Of a stretch of DNA of 41,786 nt, positions 3,316 to 36,708 are shown piece after piece (position 1 is the stretch's first letter; every line of letters starts with the position of its first letter). This DNA comes from Parvibaculum sp. GTDB lineage: Bacteria; Pseudomonadota; Alphaproteobacteria; Parvibaculales; Parvibaculaceae. The DNA lies in the NCBI GenBank assembly GCA_019635965.1, contig JAHBYK010000014.1, positions 1 through 41,786 on the forward strand. The letters run 5' to 3'. The position numbers and the translations under genes are program-made. Below the pieces are notes generated by a model. That model saw only the letters and a program-made list of their open reading frames with translations. It was not told the origin of the DNA and made no database searches.

Positions 3316-4986
3316 ATGAGCGAGGCGGCGGTCGAACGCGAATTTATGGAGTATGACGTCGTAATCGTCGGCGGCGGCCCTGCGGGCCTGTCGGCCGCGA
3401 TCCGCCTGCGCCAGCTCGCGGCGGAGCATGATTTCGACATTTCGGTCTGCCTGATCGAGAAAGGCTCCGAAGTCGGCGCGCATATCCTTTCGGGTGCCGT
3501 GATCGATCCGATCGGCCTCGACACGCTGATCCCCGACTGGCGCGAAAAGGGAGCCCCGCTCGATACCGAAGTCACGGCCGACCATTTCCTCTATCTCGGC
3601 CCGGCCGGCAGCCTGCGCGTTCCCAATTTCCTGTTCCCGCCGCTGATGAACAATCACGGCAATTACATTGCGAGCCTTGGCAATGTCTGCCGCTGGCTTG
3701 CCGAACAGGCCGAGGCGCTGGGCGTTGAAATCTATCCGGGCTTTGCGGGCGCCGAAGTGCTCTATGGCGAGGACGGTTCGGTGCGCGGCGTCGTGACCGG
3801 CGATCTCGGCGTGGCCAAGGACGGCAGCCACAAGGACAGCTATACGCCGGGCATGGAGCTGCGCGGCAAGTACACGCTCTTTGCCGAAGGCGTGCGCGGC
3901 TCGCTGTCGAAGGAGCTGATCCGCAAGTTCAAGCTCGACGAAGGCCGCGAGCCGCAGAAGTTCGGCATCGGCCTGAAAGAGCTCTGGGAAATCGACCCGG
4001 CGAAGCACAAGAAGGGCCTCGTGCAGCACACGATGGGCTGGCCGCTCGACAACTCGACCGGCGGCGGCTCCTTCCTCTATCACTTCGGCGAAAATCTCGT
4101 CTCGGTCGGCTTCGTGGTTCACCTGAATTACAAGAACCCGTACCTGTCGCCCTTCGACGAGTTCCAGCGTTTCAAGCATCATCCGGCGATTGCCGACACC
4201 TTCGTTGGCGGCAAGCGCATCGCCTATGGCGCGCGTGCGATCACCGAAGGCGGCTTCCAGTCCGTGCCGAAACTCATCTTCCCGGGCGGCGCGCTGATCG
4301 GCTGCTCGGCCGGTTTCGTCAACGTGCCGCGCATCAAGGGCAGCCACAACGCCATGCTCACCGGCATCATGGGCGCGGAAGCGGCCTTCGAGGCGGTGAA
4401 GGACGGGCGCCAGGGCGACGAGCTTTCCGCCTATCCGGAAGCCTATGAGAAGAGCCCGGTCTACAAGGATCTGAAGCGCGTCCGCAACGTGAAACCGCTC
4501 TGGTCCAAGCTCGGCACCTTCCTCGGCATCGGCCTTGGCGGTATCGACATGTGGATGAACAATCTCGGTATCGGTCTGCCCTTCACGCTGAAGCACGGCA
4601 AGCCCGACTACGCATCGCTCAAGGAAGCGAAGGACTGCAAGCCGATCGATTATCCCAAGCCCGACGGCAAGATTTCCTTCGACAAGCTGTCCTCGGTCTT
4701 CATCTCCGCGACCAATCACGAGGAAGACCAGCCGGTCCATCTGCGCCTGAAGGACCCGGCGATTCCGATCGGCTACAACCTGCCGAAATTCGCCGAGCCC
4801 GCGCAGCGCTATTGCCCGGCCGGCGTCTATGAGGTGGTGCGCGACGACAATGGCTCGAACCCGCGCTTCCAGATCAACGCGCAGAACTGCGTCCACTGCA
4901 AGACCTGCGATATCAAGGACCCGGCCCAGAACATCAACTGGACGGTGCCGGAAGGCGGCGGCGGGCCGAATTACCCGAATATGTAA
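3316..4986 (+). CDS. electron transfer flavoprotein-ubiquinone oxidoreductase
   Basis: A 556-residue ETF-QO. This membrane-associated flavoprotein passes electrons from reduced ETF (fed by acyl-CoA and other dehydrogenases) to ubiquinone. The N-terminal FAD site is YDVVIVGGGPAGLSAAIRL (about residues 13-31). The C-terminal domain binds a 4Fe-4S cluster: YCPAGVYE and the NCVHCKTCDIKDP segment supply four cysteines, and the end GGGGPNYPNM is typical. The length matches the family (about 550). A good ribosome site (gggaga) lies just before the ATG. The gene stands alone between a divergent UDG and a strong terminator. It points to active fatty-acid or amino-acid oxidation in an aerobic organism. 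Confidence 0.96.
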   Translation: MSEAAVEREFMEYDVVIVGGGPAGLSAAIRLRQLAAEHDFDISVCLIEKGSEVGAHILSGAVIDPIGLDTLIPDWREKGAPLDTEVTADHFLYLGPAGSLRVPNFLFPPLMNNHGNYIASLGNVCRWLAEQAEALGVEIYPGFAGAEVLYGEDGSVRGVVTGDLGVAKDGSHKDSYTPGMELRGKYTLFAEGVRGSLSKELIRKFKLDEGREPQKFGIGLKELWEIDPAKHKKGLVQHTMGWPLDNSTGGGSFLYHFGENLVSVGFVVHLNYKNPYLSPFDEFQRFKHHPAIADTFVGGKRIAYGARAITEGGFQSVPKLIFPGGALIGCSAGFVNVPRIKGSHNAMLTGIMGAEAAFEAVKDGRQGDELSAYPEAYEKSPVYKDLKRVRNVKPLWSKLGTFLGIGLGGIDMWMNNLGIGLPFTLKHGKPDYASLKEAKDCKPIDYPKPDGKISFDKLSSVFISATNHEEDQPVHLRLKDPAIPIGYNLPKFAEPAQRYCPAGVYEVVRDDNGSNPRFQINAQNCVHCKTCDIKDPAQNINWTVPEGGGGPNYPNM

Positions 4987-4996
4987 ATCCATCCCG

Positions 4997-5030
4997 AAAA
5001 CGGGGGCTGTATCCGGCCCCCGTTTTTTTT
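4997..5030 (+). terminator. Rho-independent terminator after the ETF-QO gene
   Basis: An 11-bp perfect stem (aaaacgggggc at 4997-5007 pairing with gcccccgtttt at 5016-5026) has an 8-nt loop and leads into a run of eight T (5023-5030). It begins 10 bp after the ETF-QO stop codon. Confidence 0.92.
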
Positions 5031-5100
5031 GCTTTTATAGCGGCATGTTGTGCCGCCTCACGGGGCGGCTGATTCCGAAGGCGCGAAGGCAGGCCCCTCC

Positions 5101-6873
5101 ATGATGAGTTCCGATGCGGCGCGAATGAGCGGAGCGCCGTTGTTGCGGTTGGCCAGGGTGATGGCCGTGACATCCCTTGTGGCCCTGCTTGGCGGTTGCG
5201 CCGGAACCGGCGGGTTTTCGGTCTTCTCGAAGGAACAGGCGGAATCGCCCTTCGGCGCCTATCTGGCCGGCCGCCATGCTGCGACCATGAACGATGGCAG
5301 CAAGGCAGCCGTCTTTTATGAACGCGCACTCAAGGATCAGCCGGACGATCCGGTCATTCTCGAACGCGCCTTCATGGCGGCGCTGACGGCGGGCGACATG
5401 GCGCGTGCCGTGCCGCTTGCGCAACGCCTGTCCGTCATCGAACCGTCAGAGCGCATGGCGCGGCTGACGCTGGCGCTGGCGGCGCTGCGCGAGGGGCGCT
5501 ATGGCGATGCCTCGCGCGAGATGGACGCGGCGGCACCTGGACCCTTCACGGCGCTGGTCGGCACGCTGACCCATGCCTGGGCCGCCGTCGGCGACGGCGA
5601 CCGGCAGCGCGCGCTCGACAAGATCGCCGCCTTCGAGGGCCGCGCCGCCTTCGCGCTGTTCCGTTCCTATCACGAAGCCCTGATGCTCGATGTGCTTGGC
5701 GACCGCGAGGGCGCGGCCAAGGCCTTTGAAAAGGCGATGGAAGCAAGCGGCGGCGGGTCGATCCGCGTGGTGCAGGCCTATGCCAGCTTCGCCGCGCGCC
5801 ATGGCGAGCGCGACGAGGCGCGCAAGGCGCTCACGAGTTTCATCGAAATGTCCGGCGAGCACCCGCTGGCCGAATATGAACTGAAGCGCCTCGATGCAGG
5901 CGAAACGCCGCCGCCTCTCGTCGCCAATGCGCACGAAGGGGTGGCCGAGGCGCTTTACGGCCTGGGCAGCGCCCTGGCGAGCGACACATCGACGAACCTC
6001 GCCGAGCTCTATCTCAATCTCGCGCTCTTCATGCGGCCCGATTTCGACATCGCGCGCTCGCTGCTCGGCGGCGCCTATGAAACGCAGAAGCGGTGGGCGG
6101 ATGCGGTCGACTCCTATCAGCGGATCGGCAAATCCTCGCCGCTCTATCTCAACGCGCAGATCCAGACCGCCATGTCGCTCGACAAGCTCGACCGCGAAGA
6201 AGAGGCGGTTCGCGTATTGCAGCGCCTTGCGCGCGACAATCCCGATCGCATCGAGCCGCTGGTCGCGCTTGGCGACATTCATCGCGCGAAGGAGAAATAT
6301 GCCGAGGCGGCGGCGGAATATGAACGCGCCATAATCCTTGCGGGCGAACCGGCGGAGCGCGACTGGACGCTTTACTATGCGCGTGGCATCTGCTTCGAGC
6401 GGCTTGGCGAGTGGGACAAGGCGGAAAAGGATTTGCAGCTCGCGCTCGAGCTTTCCGGCGAGCATCCGCTGGTGCTGAACTATCTCGGTTACTCCTGGAT
6501 CGAGCAGCATCACCGTCTCGACGAGGCGCTGGAGATGATCGAAAAGGCGGTCGAGCGCCGCCCGAATGACGGCTTCATCGTCGACAGCCTGGGCTGGGCG
6601 CGCTATCGCCTTGGCCAGTACGATCTCGCGGTGAAATATCTCGAGCGCGCGGTCGAGTTGCAGCCCGGCGATCCGACAATCAACGAACATCTGGGCGATG
6701 CCTTCTGGAAGGTCGGACGCCGCATCGAGGCGCGCTATCAGTGGAGCCATGCGCTGTCGCTCGAGCCGGAACCCGTCCGCGAGGCGATCCTGCGCACCAA
6801 GCTCGATTTCGGACTCGAGGCCGGCGAAAAGGCCGAGCAGGACGCCAAGGCGAAGCCTCAAGCAGGCTCGTGA
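5101..6873 (+). CDS. TPR-repeat lipoprotein
   Basis: A 590-residue protein of helical tetratricopeptide repeats, likely anchored to a membrane as a lipoprotein. From the ATG at 5101 the N-terminus has arginines, then a hydrophobic stretch ending in the lipobox LLGGC (Cys at about residue 33). Repeat-like segments run through most of the rest, for example the A-E-Y-A-I pattern around 6290-6350 and LGDAFWKVGRRIEARYQW near the C-terminus. TPR arrays bind other proteins; no enzyme motif is visible. The frame is open upstream to a GTG at 5050, but 5101 gives a normal signal peptide. The stop codon overlaps the ispE start (TGATG), so the two are probably co-translated, a pairing whose logic is unclear. 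Confidence 0.85.
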   Translation: MMSSDAARMSGAPLLRLARVMAVTSLVALLGGCAGTGGFSVFSKEQAESPFGAYLAGRHAATMNDGSKAAVFYERALKDQPDDPVILERAFMAALTAGDMARAVPLAQRLSVIEPSERMARLTLALAALREGRYGDASREMDAAAPGPFTALVGTLTHAWAAVGDGDRQRALDKIAAFEGRAAFALFRSYHEALMLDVLGDREGAAKAFEKAMEASGGGSIRVVQAYASFAARHGERDEARKALTSFIEMSGEHPLAEYELKRLDAGETPPPLVANAHEGVAEALYGLGSALASDTSTNLAELYLNLALFMRPDFDIARSLLGGAYETQKRWADAVDSYQRIGKSSPLYLNAQIQTAMSLDKLDREEEAVRVLQRLARDNPDRIEPLVALGDIHRAKEKYAEAAAEYERAIILAGEPAERDWTLYYARGICFERLGEWDKAEKDLQLALELSGEHPLVLNYLGYSWIEQHHRLDEALEMIEKAVERRPNDGFIVDSLGWARYRLGQYDLAVKYLERAVELQPGDPTINEHLGDAFWKVGRRIEARYQWSHALSLEPEPVREAILRTKLDFGLEAGEKAEQDAKAKPQAGS

Positions 6874-7754
6874 TGGCGGCGCCGGAGCGCGAAAGCGCCT
6901 TCGCCAAGATCAATCTGAGCCTGCGCATTTCCGGCCGCCGCCCCGACGGCTATCACGAGCTGCGAAGTCTCGCCGTCTTTGCAGCGATCGGCGACCGGAT
7001 CGAGGTGCACCCATCCGCGCAGCTCACGCTCGATCTCGAAGGCCGCTTCGCTTCATCGCTTGCCGGCGAAGCGGACAATCTGGTGCTGCGCGCCGCGCGC
7101 GGGTTGCGCGATCTTTGCGGCATCGGGGAAGGCGCCCGCATCCTTCTCGAAAAGAACCTGCCGGTCGCATCCGGCATCGGCGGCGGATCGGCCGACGCGG
7201 CGGCGGCGCTTCGCGCGCTGATGCGGCTCTGGCGGGTCAAGCCGGATGAAGCCGGCCTGATGCGGCTTGCGGCTTCGCTGGGCGCGGATGTGCCTGTCTG
7301 TCTTGGCACGGCGCCAGCGCTGATGAGCGGCATCGGGGAGAAGATCCGGCGCCTGCCGCGCCTGCCGGAAATCTGGCTGCTGCTGGCAAATCCGGGTGTC
7401 GCGCTTTCGACGGCGGATGTGTTCCGCGCGCTTGCCGCGCCGCCGCTTGCCGCCGCGCCTGCTGCGGCTCACCTGCCGGATTTCGCAACACTCGATGATC
7501 TCGTCGAATGGCTGCAAGGCGAACCGAACGATCTTGAGCGGCCCGCACGGGCGCTCCTGCCGCTGATCGGCGAGGTGATCGGGGCAATCGCCGCGACGCC
7601 GGGCTGCCGCCTTGCGCGCATGTCGGGCTCGGGCGCCACCTGCTTCGGCATCTATGCCAGCGCGAGCGAGGCGCAATCGGCCGCCGCAGCACTTTCCGCA
7701 GCTCACCCCGGCTGGTGGATCGCGGCGGCGCCTGCCGTCAGTGATTCCGGTTGA
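6873..7754 (+). CDS. ispE: 4-diphosphocytidyl-2-C-methyl-D-erythritol kinase
   Basis: A 293-residue GHMP-superfamily kinase of the non-mevalonate (MEP) isoprenoid pathway. It phosphorylates the 2-OH of CDP-methylerythritol with ATP. Visible family marks are AFAKINLSLRISGRRPDGYHEL at the N-terminus (substrate-binding Lys in AKINL), the glycine-rich ATP loop LPVASGIGGGSADAAA, and the third GHMP motif MSGSGATCFG near the C-terminus. The ATG at 6873 overlaps the stop of the TPR gene. The 3' end overlaps the convergent polyprenyl synthase by 17 bp, so two consecutive steps of isoprenoid metabolism meet tail to tail. Confidence 0.96.
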   Translation: MAAPERESAFAKINLSLRISGRRPDGYHELRSLAVFAAIGDRIEVHPSAQLTLDLEGRFASSLAGEADNLVLRAARGLRDLCGIGEGARILLEKNLPVASGIGGGSADAAAALRALMRLWRVKPDEAGLMRLAASLGADVPVCLGTAPALMSGIGEKIRRLPRLPEIWLLLANPGVALSTADVFRALAAPPLAAAPAAAHLPDFATLDDLVEWLQGEPNDLERPARALLPLIGEVIGAIAATPGCRLARMSGSGATCFGIYASASEAQSAAAALSAAHPGWWIAAAPAVSDSG

Positions 7755-8757
7755 TGCAGAATTCGACGAGCTTCGTCAGCGCCACGCGATAGGGGCTTTC
7801 CGGGAAGATCGCCAGCGCGTCGATGGCAATCGCGCCGTAATGCTTCGCCCGCGCGATCGTGTCGTCGAGCGCCGCATGCCGCTGCATCAGCTCGATCGCA
7901 TGTCCGAGGTCGCCGTCCCTGCGCTCGCCCTGTTGCAGGGTGCGCTGCCAGAAGGCGCGCTCTTCCGAATTGCCGCGCCGGTAGGCGAGGACGACGGGCA
8001 GCGTGATCTTGCCTTCGCGGAAATCGTCGCCCGTATTCTTGCCGAGCGCGGCCGAGCGGCCGCCATAGTCGAGCGCATCATCGACGAGCTGGAAGGCGAT
8101 GCCGAGATTGCGGCCATAGGAATGAAGCGCGGCGGCCTCGGTCTGATCGCGCTGCGCGATGACCGCCCCGATTTCCGAGGCAGCGGCGAAAAGCGCCGCG
8201 GTCTTGGCGGAAATCACGCGCATATAGGCGTCTTCGGTCGTGCTCGTGTCCTTTGCGGCAGCGAGCTGCATCACTTCGCCTTCGGCGATGATCGACGCCG
8301 CATCGGCGATGATCTCGAGCGCGCGGAGCGATTTCGTTTCGACCATGAGCTTGAAGGCGCGGCCGAGCAGGAAGTCACCGACCAGGACGCTCGCCTGATT
8401 GCCCCAGACCATGCGCGCCGTTTCCTTGCCGCGCCGGAGGTCGCTTTCGTCCACCACATCGTCATGGAGGAGGGTCGCCGTATGGAGAAATTCCACTGTC
8501 GCCGCGAGCTTGATGTGGTCCTTGCCCTGATAGCCGCACATCTTGGAGGCGGCGATGGTGAGCATGGGGCGAAGCCGCTTGCCGCCGGAATTGATGAGGT
8601 GGCTCGCAAGGTCCGGGATCATCGGCACGTCGGAAGCCATCCGCTCACGGATGAAATCGTTGACCGCTTCCATCTCGCCGCGAACCAGCGCCTGCAGCTC
8701 CGCAACCGCATTCGGTCCGCGGCCGCGATCTTCATCAAGGGGAACAACAACGCCCAC
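7738..8757 (-). CDS. ispB: octaprenyl/decaprenyl diphosphate synthase
   Basis: A long-chain trans-polyprenyl diphosphate synthase that extends FPP with IPP to make the ubiquinone side chain. The first Asp-rich motif is LLHDDVVDE (D99, D100, D103 from the chosen start) and the second is QLVDDALDYG. GGKRLRPML and KTAALFAAA are also typical. I chose the GTG at 8757 (protein MGVVVPLDEDR, 339 residues) because AGGAG lies a good distance upstream; an ATG at 8814 would add 19 residues of weak similarity. Octaprenyl versus decaprenyl specificity cannot be read from the sequence; ubiquinone-10 is common in alphaproteobacteria. Confidence 0.93.
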   Translation of the reverse strand: MGVVVPLDEDRGRGPNAVAELQALVRGEMEAVNDFIRERMASDVPMIPDLASHLINSGGKRLRPMLTIAASKMCGYQGKDHIKLAATVEFLHTATLLHDDVVDESDLRRGKETARMVWGNQASVLVGDFLLGRAFKLMVETKSLRALEIIADAASIIAEGEVMQLAAAKDTSTTEDAYMRVISAKTAALFAAASEIGAVIAQRDQTEAAALHSYGRNLGIAFQLVDDALDYGGRSAALGKNTGDDFREGKITLPVVLAYRRGNSEERAFWQRTLQQGERRDGDLGHAIELMQRHAALDDTIARAKHYGAIAIDALAIFPESPYRVALTKLVEFCINRNH

Positions 8758-8944
8758 GCGCCACTCCTGCTCCGGGAGGGCCGCCTTGCAGCCCGAGTTA
8801 TCCACAACCGGCATGTGTTATCCTGCCGTCATGAGGGAGCATAGGTTGACGCCCCCTGTGCGGCAAGGGCTGCAAGACCTAGATAAATCCTCAAGCGCGG
8901 CGCTTTTCGCCGCATTTCCGGCGGAGCGGAAAGGGCCAGTCCGC

Positions 8945-9157
8945 ATGAAGGAGTTGATTCGAACGAACGACCCCGTGCTGGTCTCGTTTCTGACGCACCG
9001 GCTGCGCGAGGAGGGTATTGAGCCCTTCGAAATGGATGTCCATATGAGCCTGACGGAAGGCTCGCTCGGCATCCTGCCCAAGCGTATCATGGTGGTGGAT
9101 GAGGATTACGGGCGCGCACGGATCATTCTCGACGAGGTTCAGAGGAGCGGCACCTGA
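8945..9157 (+). CDS. DUF2007 small protein
   Basis: A 70-residue protein beginning MKELIRTNDPVLVSFLTHRL and containing a FEMDVHMSLTEGS segment and VVDEDYGRARIILDEV near the end. This is the pattern of DUF2007, a small ferredoxin-like fold annotated as putative signal transducing protein; no activity is established as far as I know. The ATG at 8945 fits the family's start; the open frame extends further upstream without similarity. Its stop codon overlaps the start of the methyltransferase (TGATG), so the two are almost certainly one transcript. It is divergent from ispB. Confidence 0.85.
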   Translation: MKELIRTNDPVLVSFLTHRLREEGIEPFEMDVHMSLTEGSLGILPKRIMVVDEDYGRARIILDEVQRSGT

Positions 9158-9954
9158 TGAGCGCGACACTGACGGATGAGAAACCGGCCAATGACGTTAC
9201 CGATGACGGCTTTCTCGGCGGCAGGCTGAAGATCCTGCAACCGGCAAAGGGCTATCGCGCGGGGCTCGACGCGGTGCTGCTCGCCGCCTCCATTCCCGCG
9301 CGCGAAGGAGAGCGCGTGCTGGAAGCGGGCGCGGGCGTCGGCGTTGCGAGCCTCTGCCTCGCCTCGCGCGTGAGCGGGCTCGATGTCGAAGGTATCGAGG
9401 TGCAGCCCGAGCTTGTGCGTCTCGCCGGCGAGAATATCGCGCGCAACGGCCTTGCCGGCCGCGTCTCCGTTACCGAAGGCGATATTGGCCTGCCGGTGCG
9501 CGATCTGGCGGCGGCGGGCTTTGCGCCCAACAGCTGGCATCACGTCTTTGCAAATCCGCCGTTTCACGATCCGGCGGCAAGCCCCGCCCCGCCCGATGCG
9601 AGCAAGGCCCAGTCACATCACCTGACGCTCGGTTCCGATCTCGACGACTGGGTACGCTTCTGCTGCGTGATGGCGCGGCCCAAGGGCACGGTGACATTCA
9701 TTCACCGCGCCGACGCGCTGGCGGCGCTGCTCGGCGTCATGTCGGGCCATCTCGGCGGTATCGAGGTCTTTCCGCTCTGGCCGGCGGCCGGCAAGCCGGC
9801 CTCGCGCGTGATCGTGCGCGGCCAGCGCGACTCGAAGGCACCGCTGACGCTCCGCCCCGGCCTTGTGCTGCATGGCACGGATGGCCGCTTCACGCCGCGC
9901 GCCGAAAGCCTGCTGCGGGAAGGCGCGGCGCTCCGTTTCGACCAGCCGGGCTGA
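9157..9954 (+). CDS. TrmN6/YfiC-like N6-adenine methyltransferase
   Basis: A 265-residue SAM-dependent methyltransferase. The SAM loop VLEAGAGVGVASLCLASR, an acidic strand end (VEGIEVQPELV) and the catalytic NPPF motif in HHVFANPPFHDP mark the N6-adenine/glutamine methylase class. The opening LGGRLKILQPAKGYRAGLDAVLLAA is typical of tRNA1(Val) adenine-37 N6-methyltransferase-like proteins. The substrate is inferred from that likeness and could be another RNA or a protein. It is translationally coupled to the DUF2007 gene and lies 54 bp before the S49 peptidase on the same strand. Confidence 0.85.
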   Translation: MSATLTDEKPANDVTDDGFLGGRLKILQPAKGYRAGLDAVLLAASIPAREGERVLEAGAGVGVASLCLASRVSGLDVEGIEVQPELVRLAGENIARNGLAGRVSVTEGDIGLPVRDLAAAGFAPNSWHHVFANPPFHDPAASPAPPDASKAQSHHLTLGSDLDDWVRFCCVMARPKGTVTFIHRADALAALLGVMSGHLGGIEVFPLWPAAGKPASRVIVRGQRDSKAPLTLRPGLVLHGTDGRFTPRAESLLREGAALRFDQPG

Positions 9955-10008
9955 GGGAGCGGGGCCCCGCGCTTGCTGCCTGCGCCGCGCCACCCTATCT
10001 ATGGTGAC

Positions 10009-10917
10009 ATGAGAAACCGTATTGCGCCTTTCCTTCCCGGCCCGCTGCGCCGCCGCGTGGCACCCGGCTGGTCTCCGAAACCCGTGGTTGCCGTGGTGCG
10101 GCTTGCCGGCATCATCGGCCCGTCGCAACCGTTGCGCGGCGGGCTCAATCTCGCCGCCGTCGCCCCCGCGCTCGAGGCCGCCTTTTCCATGCGCGGCGTG
10201 AAGGCGGTGGCGCTCGTCATCAATTCGCCGGGCGGATCGCCCGTCCAGTCCTCGCTGATCTACAAGCGCATCCGCGCGCTGGCGGAGGAAAAGGGTTTGC
10301 CCGTCTATGCCTTTGCGGAGGATGTGGCGGCTTCCGGCGGCTACATGATCGCCTGCGCGGCGGACGAGATTTACGCCGATCAAAGCTCGATCCTCGGCTC
10401 CATCGGCGTCGTCTCGGCAGGCTTCGGCTTTACCGGCCTGATCGAGAAGCTCGGTGTCGAGCGCCGGGTCCATACGGCTGGCGAGAGCAAGGCCATGCTC
10501 GATCCCTTCCAGCCGGAAAAGCCCGAAGAAGTGGCCCGCCTGAAGGCGCTCCAGTCCGACGTGCATGATTACTTCAAGAAACTCGTCTCCGAATCCCGCG
10601 GCGAGCGGCTGAAGAAGGACGATGCGGACATCTTCTCCGGCGCCTTCTGGGCGGGCGAGGGCGCGGTTGCCCGCGGCCTTGCCGACGGCATTGGCGATGT
10701 CCGGGGCAAGATGCGGGAGCTTTTCGGCAAGGACGTGCGGCTGAAACTCGTGACCTCGCGCGGGCCCTGGTGGCGGCCTTCGGCGGGCGGCGGCGTCGAT
10801 TCGAGCCGTGCGGAGGGGCTTTTTGCCCGTCTCGGGGCCGGTTTTGCGGCCGAACTCGGCGACGGGCTCATTGCCGCAGCCGAGAGGCGTTCCCTTTGGA
10901 GCCGTTTTGGCCTTTAA
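10009..10917 (+). CDS. S49-family peptidase (SppA/SohB-like), no membrane anchor
   Basis: A 302-residue serine peptidase of the signal-peptide-peptidase A family. The nucleophile is Ser109 in AASGGYMIACAADEI. The general base fits Lys161 in AGESK, 52 residues later, the same spacing as the Ser147/Lys199 dyad of Bacillus SppA. INSPGGSPVQ and GSIGVVS are also family marks. The N-terminus (MRNRIAPFLPGPLRRR) is basic and proline-rich with no clear membrane segment, unlike many SppA proteins, so it may be cytoplasmic or peripheral. The ATG at 10009 is preferred over a TTG at 9973. It probably degrades cleaved signal peptides or similar membrane-derived peptides. Confidence 0.9.
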   Translation: MRNRIAPFLPGPLRRRVAPGWSPKPVVAVVRLAGIIGPSQPLRGGLNLAAVAPALEAAFSMRGVKAVALVINSPGGSPVQSSLIYKRIRALAEEKGLPVYAFAEDVAASGGYMIACAADEIYADQSSILGSIGVVSAGFGFTGLIEKLGVERRVHTAGESKAMLDPFQPEKPEEVARLKALQSDVHDYFKKLVSESRGERLKKDDADIFSGAFWAGEGAVARGLADGIGDVRGKMRELFGKDVRLKLVTSRGPWWRPSAGGGVDSSRAEGLFARLGAGFAAELGDGLIAAAERRSLWSRFGL

Positions 10918-11272: not shown

Positions 11273-11344
11273 GCGCCCGCCCGAGGCAGCGCGTTCGCGG
11301 GCCTTGATTCCGCTGGCCGATCTCGCTTGAAAGCGCCTCCCGAC

Positions 11345-12229
11345 ATGACGGCGAAGCCCGATAATTCTTTCCAGTCGCTGATCCTGAAATTGCAGTCCTT
11401 CTGGGCCGCGCAGGGCTGCGTCATTCTTCAGCCCTACGACATGGCGATGGGCGCGGGCACCTTCCACCCGGCGACGACGCTGCGCGCGCTGGGGCCGAAG
11501 CCCTGGAAGGCGGCCTATGTGCAGCCCTCGCGCCGCCCGACCGACGGACGCTATGGCGAGAACCCGAACCGCTTTCAGCATTACTATCAGTTTCAGGTGA
11601 TCCTGAAGCCGAGCCCCGCGAACCTTCAGGAGCTTTATCTCGAAAGCCTGAAGGTGCTCGGCATCGATGCCGCCAACCACGACATCCGCTTCGTCGAGGA
11701 CGACTGGGAAAGTCCGACGCTGGGCGCCTGGGGCCTTGGCTGGGAAGTCTGGTGCGACGGCATGGAAGTCTCGCAGTTCACCTACTTTCAGCAGGTGGGC
11801 GGCATCGACTGCAACCCCGTCTCGGGCGAGCTCACCTACGGCCTCGAGCGCCTTGCCATGTATATCCAGGGCATCGACAACGGCTATGAACTCGATTTCA
11901 ACGGCGCCACCGGCGATGACCGTGTGACCTATGGCGATGTCTTCCATCAGGCCGAAGTCGAATTCTCCGCACATAATTTCGAGCACGCGAACACGGAAAT
12001 GCTGTTCCGCCATTTCGAGGATGCGGAGAAAGAGTGTGCCTCGCTGCTCGAAAAGGGGCTGGCGCTGCCGGCCTATGACCAGGTCATCAAGGCCTCTCAC
12101 AATTTCAACCTGCTCGATGCGCGCGGTGTGATCTCCGTCACCGAACGTCAGGCCTATATCGGCCGCGTCCGCGCGCTCGCCAAAGGCTGTGCCGAAGCCT
12201 GGGTGAAGTCGCAGGAGGCGCGCGCATGA
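11345..12229 (+). CDS. glyQ: glycyl-tRNA synthetase alpha subunit
   Basis: A 294-residue catalytic alpha subunit of the alpha2beta2 bacterial GlyRS, which makes glycyl-adenylate and charges tRNA(Gly). Nearly invariant family segments are visible: [67 protein letters not shown] and [14 protein letters not shown]. The ATG at 11345 ([10 protein letters not shown]) is chosen over a TTG six codons upstream because it gives the usual family N-terminus. Its end overlaps glyS by 4 bp (ATGA), so the two subunits are translationally coupled. Confidence 0.97.
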
Positions 12230-14385
12230 GCGAACTTCTGCTCGAACTCTTTTCCGAGGAAATTCCCGCGCGGATGCAGAAGCGCGCGGGCGAGGATCTC
12301 GTGCGCCTCGTAAGCGATGCGCTGAAGGAAGCAGGCGTCGAGGGAAAGAACGCGCGCGCCTATGCGACGCCGCGCCGGCTTACCCTCGTCGTCGAGGGCC
12401 TGCCCGAGCGCACGCCCGATGTGAAGGAAGAACGCAAGGGCCCCAAGGTCGGCGCGCCGCAACAGGCGATCGACGGCTTCCTGCGCGCGGCGGGCCTCGC
12501 CTCCATTGACGAAGCGAAGGTGCAGGAAGACAAGAAGGGCGCCTTCTATCTCGCGGTGACGGAGAGACAGGGCCGGGCGACGGCGGAGCTGATCGCCGAG
12601 ATCGTGCCCGGCGTGATCCGCGCCTTTCCCTGGCCGAAATCGATGCGCTGGGGCAGCGGCACGCTGCGCTGGGTACGCCCGCTTCACTCGATCCTCTGCC
12701 TGCTCGGCGGCAAGGTGGTGCCCTTCGAGGTGGATGGCATCAAATCGGGCGACACGACACGCGGCCACCGCTTCATGGCACCGGGCGCTTTCGCGGTGAA
12801 AGACTTTGCCGATTACGAGATGAAGCTGACGGAAGCGAAGGTCGTGCTCGACGCCGGCAAGCGCGCGCATTTCATCCATGCGGGCGCGAAGGCGCTGGCG
12901 GAAGCCGAAGGCCTGACGCTCGTCGAGGACGAGGCGTTGCTTCACGAAGTGGCGGGGCTTGTCGAATGGCCGGTGCCGCTGATCGGCCGCATCGACGATG
13001 AATTCATGTCCGTGCCGCAGGAAGTGCTGACCAGCACGATGCGCGCCAATCAGAAATATTTCGCGCTGCACGACGCGGGAGGCAAGCTCGCCCCGCGTTT
13101 TATCGTGGTGGCGAATCTCGAAGCGGAAGATGGCGGCAAGGCCATCGTGAACGGCAATGAGCGCGTGCTGCGCGCCCGCTTCGCCGATGCGCGCTTCCTG
13201 TGGGATCAGGACCGCAAGCAGACACTGACGAGCCGCTTGCCGAAACTTAATGAAGTCATCTACCACGCAAAGCTTGGAAACCTGCACGACCGTGCGATTC
13301 ACTTAGGCAGACGGGCGCAAGCCCTTGCCGCGTATGTGCCAAGCATTGATCCCGATAGAGCGAGAATAGCAGCTACCCTTTCTAAGGCAGATCTAGTCTC
13401 GCAGATGGTCTATGAGTTTCCCGAGTTGCAGGGCCTTATGGGCGCTTACTATGCAAGGAATGATCGTCTGGGCGAAGACATAGCTTGCGCCATCGCAGAG
13501 CATTACTCGCCACTCGGCCCTTCTGACAATGTCCCATCCTCGCCGCTAGGCAAGATCGTCGCGTTGGTGGACAAGCTCAATGCTTTGGCGGGATTCTGGT
13601 ATATCGAAGAACTGCCCACGGGCTCAAAGGACCCGTTTGCGCTTCGTCGGTCGGCGCTCGGTGTGATTCGAATTGTTCTCGAGGGTTCTCTGAGAATACC
13701 GCTGCGCAAATACTTGAAAGACGAAATTTCAAGCTTGCAGATTCTTGGGGTTGGACTGGACAGCTGGGTTGCAAAAGCGAAGCTCACCGCCGCGCAAAAG
13801 TTTGACCGAGCCTCGGTGGAATCTGATCCCGCAGACATAGACGTTTTTGGGTTTATTGCCGATGACCTCCTCTCCTTCTTCGCCGACCGTCTGAAAGTCT
13901 ATCTGCGCGATCGCGGCGCGCGGCATGATCTCGTCGATGCCGTGTTCGCGCTGGAAGGTCAGGACGATCTCGTGCTGATCGTGAAGCGCGTGGAGGCTCT
14001 GTCGGAATTCCTCAGCACCGAAGACGGCGCGAACCTGCTGGCCGGCTACAAGCGTGCGACCAATATCCTTCGGATCGAGGAGAAGAAGGACGGTGCGAGC
14101 TATGACGCTGCGCCGGATGCCGCGCTTTTCGCGCAGGACGAGGAAAAGGCACTTGCTGCCGCCATCGCCGCCGCGACGGGCCGCGCGAAGGAAGCCGTGG
14201 CACAGGAAGATTTCGCCGCCGCCATGTCGGCGCTCGCCACGCTGCGCGCGCCGGTCGATGCCTTTTTCGACAAGGTGACGGTCAATGCCGACGATGCGAA
14301 GGTTCGCGCGAACCGCCTGAAGCTGCTCGCGCAGATCCGCGCCGCGCTTCACGAGGTCGCCGATTTTTCGAAGGTCGAGGGGTAG
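12226..14385 (+). CDS. glyS: glycyl-tRNA synthetase beta subunit
   Basis: A 719-residue beta subunit of tetrameric GlyRS, needed for tRNA binding. The N-terminus [15 protein letters not shown] is diagnostic. Other family segments are [48 protein letters not shown], an HD-like region around [17 protein letters not shown], and [16 protein letters not shown]. The frame is intact and of normal length. The middle of the gene (about residues 338-547) has much lower GC and different codon choice from both ends, as if replaced by a homologous segment from another lineage; this is listed separately. Confidence 0.96.
13240..13865 (+). other. atypical-composition segment inside glyS (putative recombination tract)
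   Basis: Counting bases 13261-13860 gives 323 G+C in 600 (about 54%), against about 70% in sampled lines of the flanking glyS sequence. Codons rare elsewhere in the window (TTA, CTT, ATA, AGA, TCT) cluster here; RIAATL, for example, is aga-ata-gca-gct-acc-ctt. The protein motifs stay canonical across both edges. Edges are estimated by eye and may be off by tens of bases. Confidence 0.7.
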
Positions 14386-14410
14386 AATCCCGGCCTAAAA
14401 TAAACTCGTC

Positions 14411-14506
14411 ATTGCCGGGCGCTCCTTTGAGCTTTAAGGAGGCCGGCAATCCTGAGCGACAAGGCTCTGTGCGAGCGGCCCCTGGATGCCCGGATCAAGT
14501 CCGGGC
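14411..14506. repeat. pair of extragenic palindromes (REP-like) between glyS and ppdK
   Basis: First hairpin: attgccgg (14411-14418) pairs with ccggcaat (14443-14450), with inner arms ctcctt and aaggag. Second hairpin: gcccgga (14488-14494) pairs with tccgggc (14500-14506) around tcaag. The text around it (cctggatgcccggatcaag) resembles dispersed palindromic repeats common in alphaproteobacterial genomes. No T-run follows either hairpin, so neither is a clear Rho-independent terminator, though they may stabilise the glyS 3' end. Confidence 0.55.
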
Positions 14507-14554
14507 TGACGTTTGAGTGTGTAGCGCAGAAAGCCCAAACCAAAGGCAAGTGCG

Positions 14555-17254
<2,700 letters not shown>

Positions 17255-21882: not shown

Positions 21883-22953
21883 TCAGTTGCCGAGATTGAT
21901 CATCCGTTCGACCGCCTGCCGCGCACGCACCGCGACCGCGGGATCGACCGTCACTTCCTCGCGCATATAGACGAGGCTCTCGAGAATGTTCCTCAGCGAG
22001 ATACGCTTCATATGCGGGCAGAGATTGCAGGGGCGGACGAATTCCACATTCGGATTCTCGACCGCCACATTGTCGCTCATGGAACATTCCGTCACCATGA
22101 CGACGCGCTTCGGCTGGTTCTGCTTCACCCAGTTGATCATGCCGGAGGTGGAACCGGAGAAATCGGCTTCCGCCACGACATCCGGCGGGCATTCGGGATG
22201 CGCGATGATGACGATATTCGGATCGTCGCGGCGATACTGGCGCAATTCCTCGGCCGTGAAACGCTCATGCACTTCGCAATGACCCTTCCAGGTGAGAATT
22301 TTCACCTTGGTCTGCTTGGCGATGTTCTGTGCGAGATATTCGTCGGGGATGCAGAGCACGCGGTCCGTGCCGAAGCTCTCGACAACCTTCAGCGCATTGG
22401 AGGAGGTGCAGCAGATGTCGCTTTCCGCCTTTACTTCGGCGGACGTGTTCACATAGGTCACGACCGGCACGCCGGGGAACTTTTCGCGGAGCAGGCGGAC
22501 ATCGGCGCCGGTGATGGAATCGGCGAGCGAGCAGCCGGCCTTTGAATCCGGGATGAGGACGATCTTCTCGGGGTTCAGGAGCTTCGATGTCTCGGCCATG
22601 AAGTGAACGCCGCACTGCACGATGACGTCCGCATCGACCTTCGCCGCTTCCTTGGCGAGTTGCAGGCTGTCGCCTGCGATGTCGCTCACGCAGTGGAAGA
22701 TTTCCGGCGTCTGGTAATTATGTGCGAGCACGACAGCGCCGCGCTCCTTCTTGAGCTTGTTGATGGCGTGAATATAGGGGGCGAAGAAGGGCCACTCGAC
22801 CGAAGGGATGACGTGTTTCACCTTCTCGTAGAGAGGCGCCATTTCCTTTGCGAGGCCGGGCGTATATTCGAGCTCGGGCATCTCCAGCGGCTTGAACGCG
22901 CGCGCCGCGGGCTTTGTACCCGTCTTCTGCAGCATGTCACCTGCGAGGGCCAT
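21883..22953 (-). CDS. nadA: quinolinate synthase A
   Basis: A 356-residue quinolinate synthase, condensing iminoaspartate with dihydroxyacetone phosphate using a labile 4Fe-4S cluster. Likely cluster cysteines lie in [18 protein letters not shown] and [46 protein letters not shown] and HPECPPDV are typical of NadA. The ATG at 22953 (MALAGDM) is chosen because AGGAGGT lies just upstream, although the frame is open 28 codons further. It is the first gene of nadABC. A perfect palindrome ends 23 bp before the start, so transcription is probably repressed through it. Confidence 0.97.
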
Positions 22954-36435: not shown

Positions 36436-36708
36436 TTAGTGAATCGCCCCCACGAAATCCGCATGCCGGAATTCGCTCGGATGGATGAGCCGCTTCGTGC
36501 CCACGCGCACGGAATGGATCGGTCCTTCGAGTTCCCGGTTCCAGAAATCGAGAAATTTGGAGAGCGCCGGATATTTCGGCTCGAGATCGTAGTCCTGCCA
36601 GATATAGCTTTGCAGGAGCTTTGGATGATCGGGCATCCGGTAGAGAATTTCGGCTGTCACCAGCCGGTAGCCATCGAGAAGCTTTTTCAGTTCCGAAACC
36701 TGTCTCAC
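36436..36708 (-). CDS. usg: Usg protein (alphaproteobacterial, function unknown)
   Basis: A 90-residue protein with the strongly conserved Usg core: LLDGYRLVTAEILYRMPDHP, LLQSYIWQDYDLEPKYP and FWNRELEGPIHSVRV. Usg is named from its place upstream of trp genes in Caulobacter; here no trp gene is near. The start is most likely the GTG at 36708, because GGAGG lies 7 bp upstream, although the frame runs open to 36813. The function is unknown. It converges with the GT9 gene, 16 bp apart. Confidence 0.88.
   Translation of the reverse strand: MRQVSELKKLLDGYRLVTAEILYRMPDHPKLLQSYIWQDYDLEPKYPALSKFLDFWNRELEGPIHSVRVGTKRLIHPSEFRHADFVGAIH

Follow-up and report, generated by a model that had tools for sequence, protein, structure and literature searches.

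The glyS locus and its low-GC block

The window analyzed here, a stretch of 41,786 nucleotides from Parvibaculum sp., carries the genes for both subunits of glycyl-tRNA synthetase (GlyRS). The product of glyS contains the tRNA_synt_2f and DALR domains (Pfam) that identify the beta subunit of an (alpha-beta)2 enzyme. The features discussed below are as follows.

11327..12229, plus strand: glyQ, alpha subunit open reading frame; it overlaps the start of glyS, which follows directly, and its relatives served as an unlinked control
12226..14385, plus strand: glyS, glycyl-tRNA synthetase beta subunit, 719 residues, a single open frame from ATG (PF02092 at residues 4-574, PF05746 at 606-710)
13243..13863, plus strand: low-GC3 block, codons 340-546, from a likelihood fit and shuffles
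13249..13914, plus strand: tract replaced relative to the protein P0134, codons 342-563, fitted in a protein comparison
13339..13359, plus strand: second variable loop, codons 372-378, with an in-frame repeat insert in three relatives (G009, G021, and G023)
13621..13650, plus strand: codons 466-475, equivalent to the Escherichia coli loop and beginning of a helix that touch the acceptor stem; G466, S467, D469, R474, and R475 are invariant in 81 sequences
13702..13863, plus strand: hypervariable module, codons 493-546, between the end of the HD domain and the start of the DALR side, delimited by alignments and families
13888..13890, plus strand: codon 555 (Arg), counterpart of E. coli Arg531, which contacts the acceptor-stem backbone; invariant in 81 sequences

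A first-pass annotation of this DNA had described glyS as a mosaic whose middle third, at about 54% G+C, lies between flanks of about 70% and gathers rare codons. By direct count the G+C fraction at 13261-13860 is 0.538, in agreement with the annotation, and the flanks are poorer than claimed, at 0.655 (12226-13242) and 0.644 (13864-14385), i.e., about 65%. GC3 is 0.556 in codons 340 to 546 versus 0.809 elsewhere in glyS, with an intact frame. The edges of the block were set by a two-breakpoint likelihood fit on third positions, which gained 23.1 log units, compared with a maximum of 12.9 among 500 codon-order shuffles. The left edge is fairly sharp, with start codons 332 to 348 within 2 log units of the optimum, and the right edge is loose, with end codons from 541 to 585. 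Clustering of rare codons was borne out for ATA, TCT, and AGA (4 versus 0, 4 versus 0, and 4 versus 1 among 207 codons inside and 512 outside) and not for TTA, a single case (1 versus 0), or CTT, which is only mildly enriched (7 versus 9). Two family motifs described as normal, EFPELQG and another of 12 residues, are both intact, and the open frame is uninterrupted.

The dip in G+C is not by itself unique in the window, as 600-bp stretches around 17251, around 22700 to 22950, and at 36541 are as low or lower (0.53 to 0.54). The annotation had also held that the same dip in sister species would argue against replacement. Part of the dip is indeed shared: it is common to most Parvibaculum species over the central module, and the wide low-GC arm of codons 340 to 492 is strong in the window gene and in G001 and weaker in the others.

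An intein or homing element was rejected as the nature of the block, as no splicing or endonuclease domain was found by Pfam in the window GlyS, nor above the cut-off in eight proteins with a long module. Rfam elements gave no match in the window at the gathering threshold. A search of the source genome (2.48 Mb in 116 contigs, 75% complete) returned one glyS match and no second copy.

Replacement of the block in the window gene

Comparison with P0134, a GlyS named Parvibaculum sp. (three contigs of up to 196,795 bases), shows directly that the block was recently replaced. Among the 88 substitutions between the two proteins, 3 fall in residues 1 to 341, 84, together with insertions and deletions, in 342 to 563, and a single one in 564 to 719. 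Another GlyS, P0002, differs from the window protein at 4 of 719 residues and carries the window's block; it belongs to a cluster of three sequences on five contigs, the longest of 3.38 Mb, for which the assignment of sequences to contigs is not given. Since P0002 is a separate sequence with the same block, an assembly chimera, which the annotation had named as a possible artifact, is unlikely.

In trees of the N-terminal and C-terminal thirds of the gene the nearest species are G002 and G021 (support 100/99 and 98/98), and the end branch of the window gene measures 0.049 and 0.038, respectively, against 0.82 for the middle part (codons 340 to 492). In the tree of the middle part the window gene still stands beside G002 (support 87/98), and the approximately unbiased (AU) test did not reject the grouping of G000 (the source genome of the window), G002, and G021 for the HD part (p 0.47). 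The case for replacement in this gene thus rests on divergence rather than on topology. Alignment of the contig with G002, the nearest species by GlyS for which DNA was available, extends from 316 to 23106 save for one gap at 13676-13874, within the block; nucleotide differences amount to 3/30 at codons 331 to 340, 13/30 from codon 351, and 3/30 from codon 571. The end branches, P0134, and G002 all show the sharply unequal divergence of block and flanks from the same relatives that marks a mosaic gene. The homologous replacement of the middle third proposed by the annotation is therefore supported by the outer-third trees, the long end branch, and the P0134 block; of the three separate segment phylogenies that it had suggested, the middle one is strongly divergent, and its topology is not significantly different for the window gene.

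The lower-GC relative that the annotation had invoked as donor was not found: no donor of the block was identified, and the best match to residues 338 to 500 other than the gene itself is a Parvibaculum sequence at 73% identity. Phages and plasmids were rejected as carriers of the block, as tblastn matches to GlyS in 37 plasmid and 15 phage records were all below 60% identity; they covered at least 80% of the query in 36 of the 37 plasmid and 13 of the 15 phage records. Viral contigs were likewise rejected, the two viral loci in the scan being a whole gene at 32% identity and a contig-end fragment, residues 437 to 578, at 42%.

A hypervariable module probably exchanged among close relatives

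The annotation had treated the replacement as a single event. Instead, the same region has been replaced repeatedly in Alphaproteobacteria, around a hypervariable module that the annotation had missed. In an alignment of 42 loci, residues 497 to 545 have no counterpart in most Parvibaculum species, and both flanks align easily. Across 345 distinct GlyS proteins the module measures 6 to 159 residues (median, 47). The 294 modules of at least 18 residues fell into 157 families, 118 of them singletons, by single-linkage blastp (E ≤ 1e-3, at least half of the shorter module covered; modules under 18 residues excluded), an upper estimate because blastp misses homology of short modules. The count omits loci of other classes and the two viral loci; L033, a fragment without the region, and L124, from E. 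coli, had been omitted beforehand, and L152 failed at the right anchor. With additional Bradyrhizobium and Methylobacterium-like sets, 353 modules formed 187 families at E ≤ 1e-4; these two names denote the genera of G094 and G087, respectively, as judged by similarity to named loci. The proteins P0002 to P0227 are a nonrandom sample, chosen for their similarity to the window; few are named, and they were taken as alphaproteobacterial by similarity.

Within Parvibaculum alone, 23 modules represent 15 families, and two species have a short type. One family is common to G000, G010, and G005, and the species nearest to G000 by flanks carry others, so that versions cross species against the species tree, as looked for under diversifying (balancing) selection. 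Where distant hosts have related modules, these mostly resemble each other less than the flanks do; the module was the more similar part in 2 of the 13 families listed at an N-terminal identity below 0.75. Some lineages keep one module: a short one is found in 23 of 35 Bradyrhizobium loci, and a common long family of 71 to 83 residues in seven rhodobacteral-type loci (L027, L083, L092, L094, L109, L114, and L115), showing that stability within a lineage is not confined to short modules. No known domain was found in the module above the Pfam cut-offs in the eight long-module proteins, and the 140-residue module of P0016 had no free-standing homologue among candidates of similar size.

Unrelated modules are frequent in proteins that are otherwise nearly identical. 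They occur in 102 of 167 pairs with identities of at least 0.95 in the N-terminal and 0.93 in the C-terminal part, a set that excludes modules under 18 residues and in which near-duplicate records make some pairs nonindependent. At stricter thresholds (at least 0.97 and 0.95), 29 of 77 close pairs have unrelated modules; these pairs, chosen for differing modules, involve only 29 sequences. The fitted tract covers residues 500 to 540 in all 29, which is expected because the pairs were picked by module; the tract ends and the clean remainder are informative. Left ends lie at 332 to 369 in 15 pairs, at 451 in one, and at 480 to 490 in 13, and right ends at 545 to 567 in 28 pairs and at 718 in one, a truncated record. 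This bimodality of the left ends indicates exchange of either the whole HD domain or little beyond the module. The 48 same-module pairs showed no comparable block outside 451 to 585; the gain exceeded 10 in 14 of them, which reflected N-terminal annotation ends, short stretches within 163 to 212, and two tracts at 451 to 585. The proteins of L079 (Xanthobacter tagetidis) and P0016 have two differences in residues 1 to 500, none after the module, and unrelated modules of 107 and 140 residues. P0062 and P0105, both named Xanthobacter aminoxidans, present a similar picture with a longer tract.

For other members of Parvibaculum, the conflict in topology between the block and its flanks is significant. 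When tested against the HD part, the 16-species clade recovered from the N part was rejected by the AU test (p 0.0017), and so, against the N part, was the clade in which the HD tree places G005 (p far below 0.0017); the groups in these genus-wide tests had been named after the trees had been seen.

Synonymous divergence, counted at codons with the same amino acid, peaks on the module. Among 16 of the 25 Parvibaculum loci, selected because their N-terminal parts resemble one another, it rises from 0.234 in glyQ and 0.281 in codons 1 to 335 to 0.450 in 340 to 420, 0.527 in 421 to 492, and 0.678 in the module, and then falls to 0.512 in 547 to 580, 0.342 in 581 to 620, and 0.327 beyond. The rise starts near codon 335 to 340, and the values decay on both sides of the maximum; values are higher in the HD part than in the N part for 119 of 120 pairs, and higher in codons 547 to 580 than further downstream for 104. 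A peak at the variable site that decays with distance is thus clear in Parvibaculum; it is graded in Bradyrhizobium and weak and one-sided in the Methylobacterium-like genus. The 35 Bradyrhizobium loci, 23 with one stable short module and 12 with others, provide an internal control. Beside the module, stable-stable pairs have an excess of +0.084, mixed pairs of +0.171, and alternative-alternative pairs of +0.209, and directly 3′ of the module the synonymous value is 0.266 versus 0.400. As 234 of 253 stable-stable pairs also show an excess, part of it is not tied to a change of module. In the 30 loci of the Methylobacterium-like genus, with 16 families, a small excess occurs in 347 of 411 pairs with different modules and in 18 of 24 within a family; on the right side it is absent.

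Composition follows the same pattern. Among loci with modules of at least 18 residues, the module has a lower GC3 than the remaining glyS sequence in 90 of 103 (means, 0.60 and 0.78), and the HD part does so in 74. The modules preserve the reading frame. Within module families, dN/dS ranges from 0.06 to 0.35 in the 12 of 20 pairs for which it could be computed (eight were saturated, and several others had a dS above 2). Taken together, base composition and divergence suggest that the module is under selection.

In other Pseudomonadota the linker at this site varies little. In the 16 usable genes among 17 loci of this set, E. coli included and L152 being the one that failed, it measures 23 to 40 residues, 26 or 27 in 11 of them, and its GC3 is mostly close to that of its own gene. 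A search with the E. coli glyS gene found it in 5,375 of 5,426 E. coli genomes, each time in one place, with at least 90% identity across all or most of its length; 51 genomes gave no match.

In the E. coli enzyme, the HD domain comprises residues 341 to 540, residues 473 to 482 grip the acceptor stem, and Arg531 touches the stem backbone (PMC9908026, PMC8464048). The module site corresponds there to a short linker of about 23 residues. The counterparts of the contact residues, at 466 to 475 and 555, fall inside the tract replaced relative to P0134, with the key positions (G466, S467, D469, R474, R475, and R555) invariant in 81 sequences, so a swapped block would keep the tRNA contacts. The predicted model of the window GlyS has a mean pLDDT of 92.5 and two helices in the module, where block means are 65 to 80 over residues 501 to 540. 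For the 140-residue module of P0016, predicted from a shallow alignment, about 60 of 140 residues have a pLDDT below 50, with ten-residue means of 37 to 69 over 521 to 640; at such low values, a folded surface is unsupported for this module.

The HD domain carries further in-frame inserts. At the counterpart of codons 372 to 378, an HD-domain loop, the three relatives listed above (loci L031, L026, and L028 for G009, G021, and G023, respectively) have an insert of about 40 residues, VIAGLDPAIQ...DARVKPGHDE, which we take to resemble a class of palindromic repeats known to enter alphaproteobacterial genes without disturbing the frame. A similar repeat makes up most of the module of P0003. Similar text (GLDPGIQ) is found on the minus strand of the glyS-ppdK spacer (14386-14556), where the same repeat family may sit. 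In G102, G110, G114, and G129, the GlyS matches break near residue 330 (up to 379 in G110 and G129) within open frames of 795 to 905 codons; in these genomes, another large variable insert may be present where the HD domain begins.

Selection, tolerance, and precedents

We consider it probable that the low-GC block was swapped in via conserved flanks and that the central module is repeatedly exchanged, with rare versions being favored by an agent that acts on GlyRS. Incoming DNA of other Alphaproteobacteria would recombine with glyS by ordinary RecA-type recombination, with the left end of the exchange falling either close to where the HD domain starts or immediately ahead of the module. The module, presumably located on the surface near the acceptor stem of the tRNA, could vary freely without loss of aminoacylation. 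It would represent the contact site of a putative antagonist, such as a phage protein, a competitor's toxin, or an inhibitor, and a cell with a rare module would escape that antagonist. The present sequence analysis revealed no antagonist, linked defense gene, or module phenotype, which counts against this explanation. A weak lead comes from avian pathogenic E. coli, for which a published table gives a single-nucleotide change in glyS in four phage-resistant variants (PMC8711792). More tentatively, and with lower confidence than for the exchange itself, the module might be an MHC-like polymorphic surface patch with hundreds of unrelated, exchangeable versions, driven by widespread phage or competitor weapons that attack GlyRS.

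The evidence bears unequally on other accounts. That only this strain imported a piece of glyS from a lower-GC relative, with no wider meaning, would fit the composition of the block, the P0134 comparison, and the long end branch of the middle third; however, similar blocks around the same module in 29 of 77 close pairs, the diversity of families, and the low module GC3 in 90 of 103 loci refute it as a full account, and we give it almost no weight. A more serious competitor is that the linker between the HD and anticodon-binding domains takes almost any in-frame sequence, so that drift and ordinary recombination would suffice with no antagonist. The position of the module at the short linker of E. 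coli, its lengths of 6 to 159 residues, the lack of domains above Pfam cut-offs in eight long-module proteins, and the low-confidence prediction of a long module all agree with such tolerance, which is still a live alternative, chiefly because many species get by with stable short modules. Nevertheless, we judge it rather unlikely. Unrelated modules in proteins that elsewhere differ by two residues imply that drift would be too slow without import, dN/dS is below 0.4 in all 12 computable within-family pairs, and neither the synonymous peak nor the fixed linkers of other Pseudomonadota is in keeping with free variation.

The purifying selection within families, the lineages with one stable module, and the proximity of the module to residues that contact the acceptor stem would also be compatible with a tuning function, in which the module fits GlyRS to a lineage-specific partner or regulatory role (a protein, the membrane, or tRNA) and exchange follows a change of partner. 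Unrelated modules in near-identical proteins would then require a new partner within a species, and glyQ shows no matching divergence; this account appears improbable. Exchange under an agent acting on GlyRS is the preferred reading; so many unrelated versions across near-identical synthetases suggest strong action on that spot.

The aminoacyl-tRNA synthetases are standard textbook cases of essential, conserved enzymes. Mosaic essential genes that arise by homologous recombination are known from the penicillin-binding-protein genes of naturally transformable bacteria, in which drugs select a few imported blocks. Like those genes, glyS presents a sharp divergent block in an essential gene with near-identical flanks; unlike them, it has more than 100 versions of one internal module. 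Restriction specificity subunits, BamA surface loops, and O-antigen loci are hypervariable loci kept diverse by antagonists, and they share with glyS the many versions, the exchange via conserved flanks, and the peak of divergence at the variable part. They serve surface or specificity functions, whereas GlyS belongs to a cytosolic essential enzyme of translation.

E. coli GlyS (PDB 7yse and 7eiv; PMC8464048, PMC9908026) has the same domain order, its HD domain (341 to 540) coincides with the replaced block, and the tRNA contacts are conserved. In contrast to its linker of about 23 residues, which the available passages of these two papers do not mention, the alphaproteobacterial one measures 6 to 159 residues, and close relatives often have unrelated versions. 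Earlier scans for balancing or positive selection have already picked out synthetase genes: a Ralstonia scan lists ileS, metG1, and tyrS (PMC6580516), and glyS was flagged in one Salmonella serotype (PMC2784778). The signals in those scans are within-species site or frequency signals, and the passages seen describe no exchangeable unrelated module. A literature search of open-licence papers gave no report of a hypervariable GlyS among the matches listed. Mosaic genes and hypervariable loci are already known; an exchangeable module of unrelated versions in an essential tRNA synthetase is, as far as this search goes, undescribed.

If an antagonist is at work, the module would reveal a point of attack in the translation apparatus that is new as a target and could lead to antibacterial proteins or compounds not yet known; if the MHC-like reading were true, the modules would expose a hidden front of the arms race between phages and bacteria within the translation machinery. 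For practical purposes, residues of about 340 to 565 should be masked when glyS is used for alphaproteobacterial phylogeny or strain typing.

Two synthetase loci were observed on records called plasmids. In Sphingomonas parapaucimobilis (NZ_CP155756.1, 197 kb), glyQ, glyS, and ppdK lie together at 4126-10131 of locus L123, and the encoded GlyS has a 75-residue module with a GC3 of 0.37 versus 0.84 in the rest of the gene. A 700-kb record called a Streptomyces plasmid (NZ_CP109164.1) has a glycine-tRNA ligase gene at 57170-59059. An extra synthetase gene of this kind can be a sign that a producer protects itself against an inhibitor.
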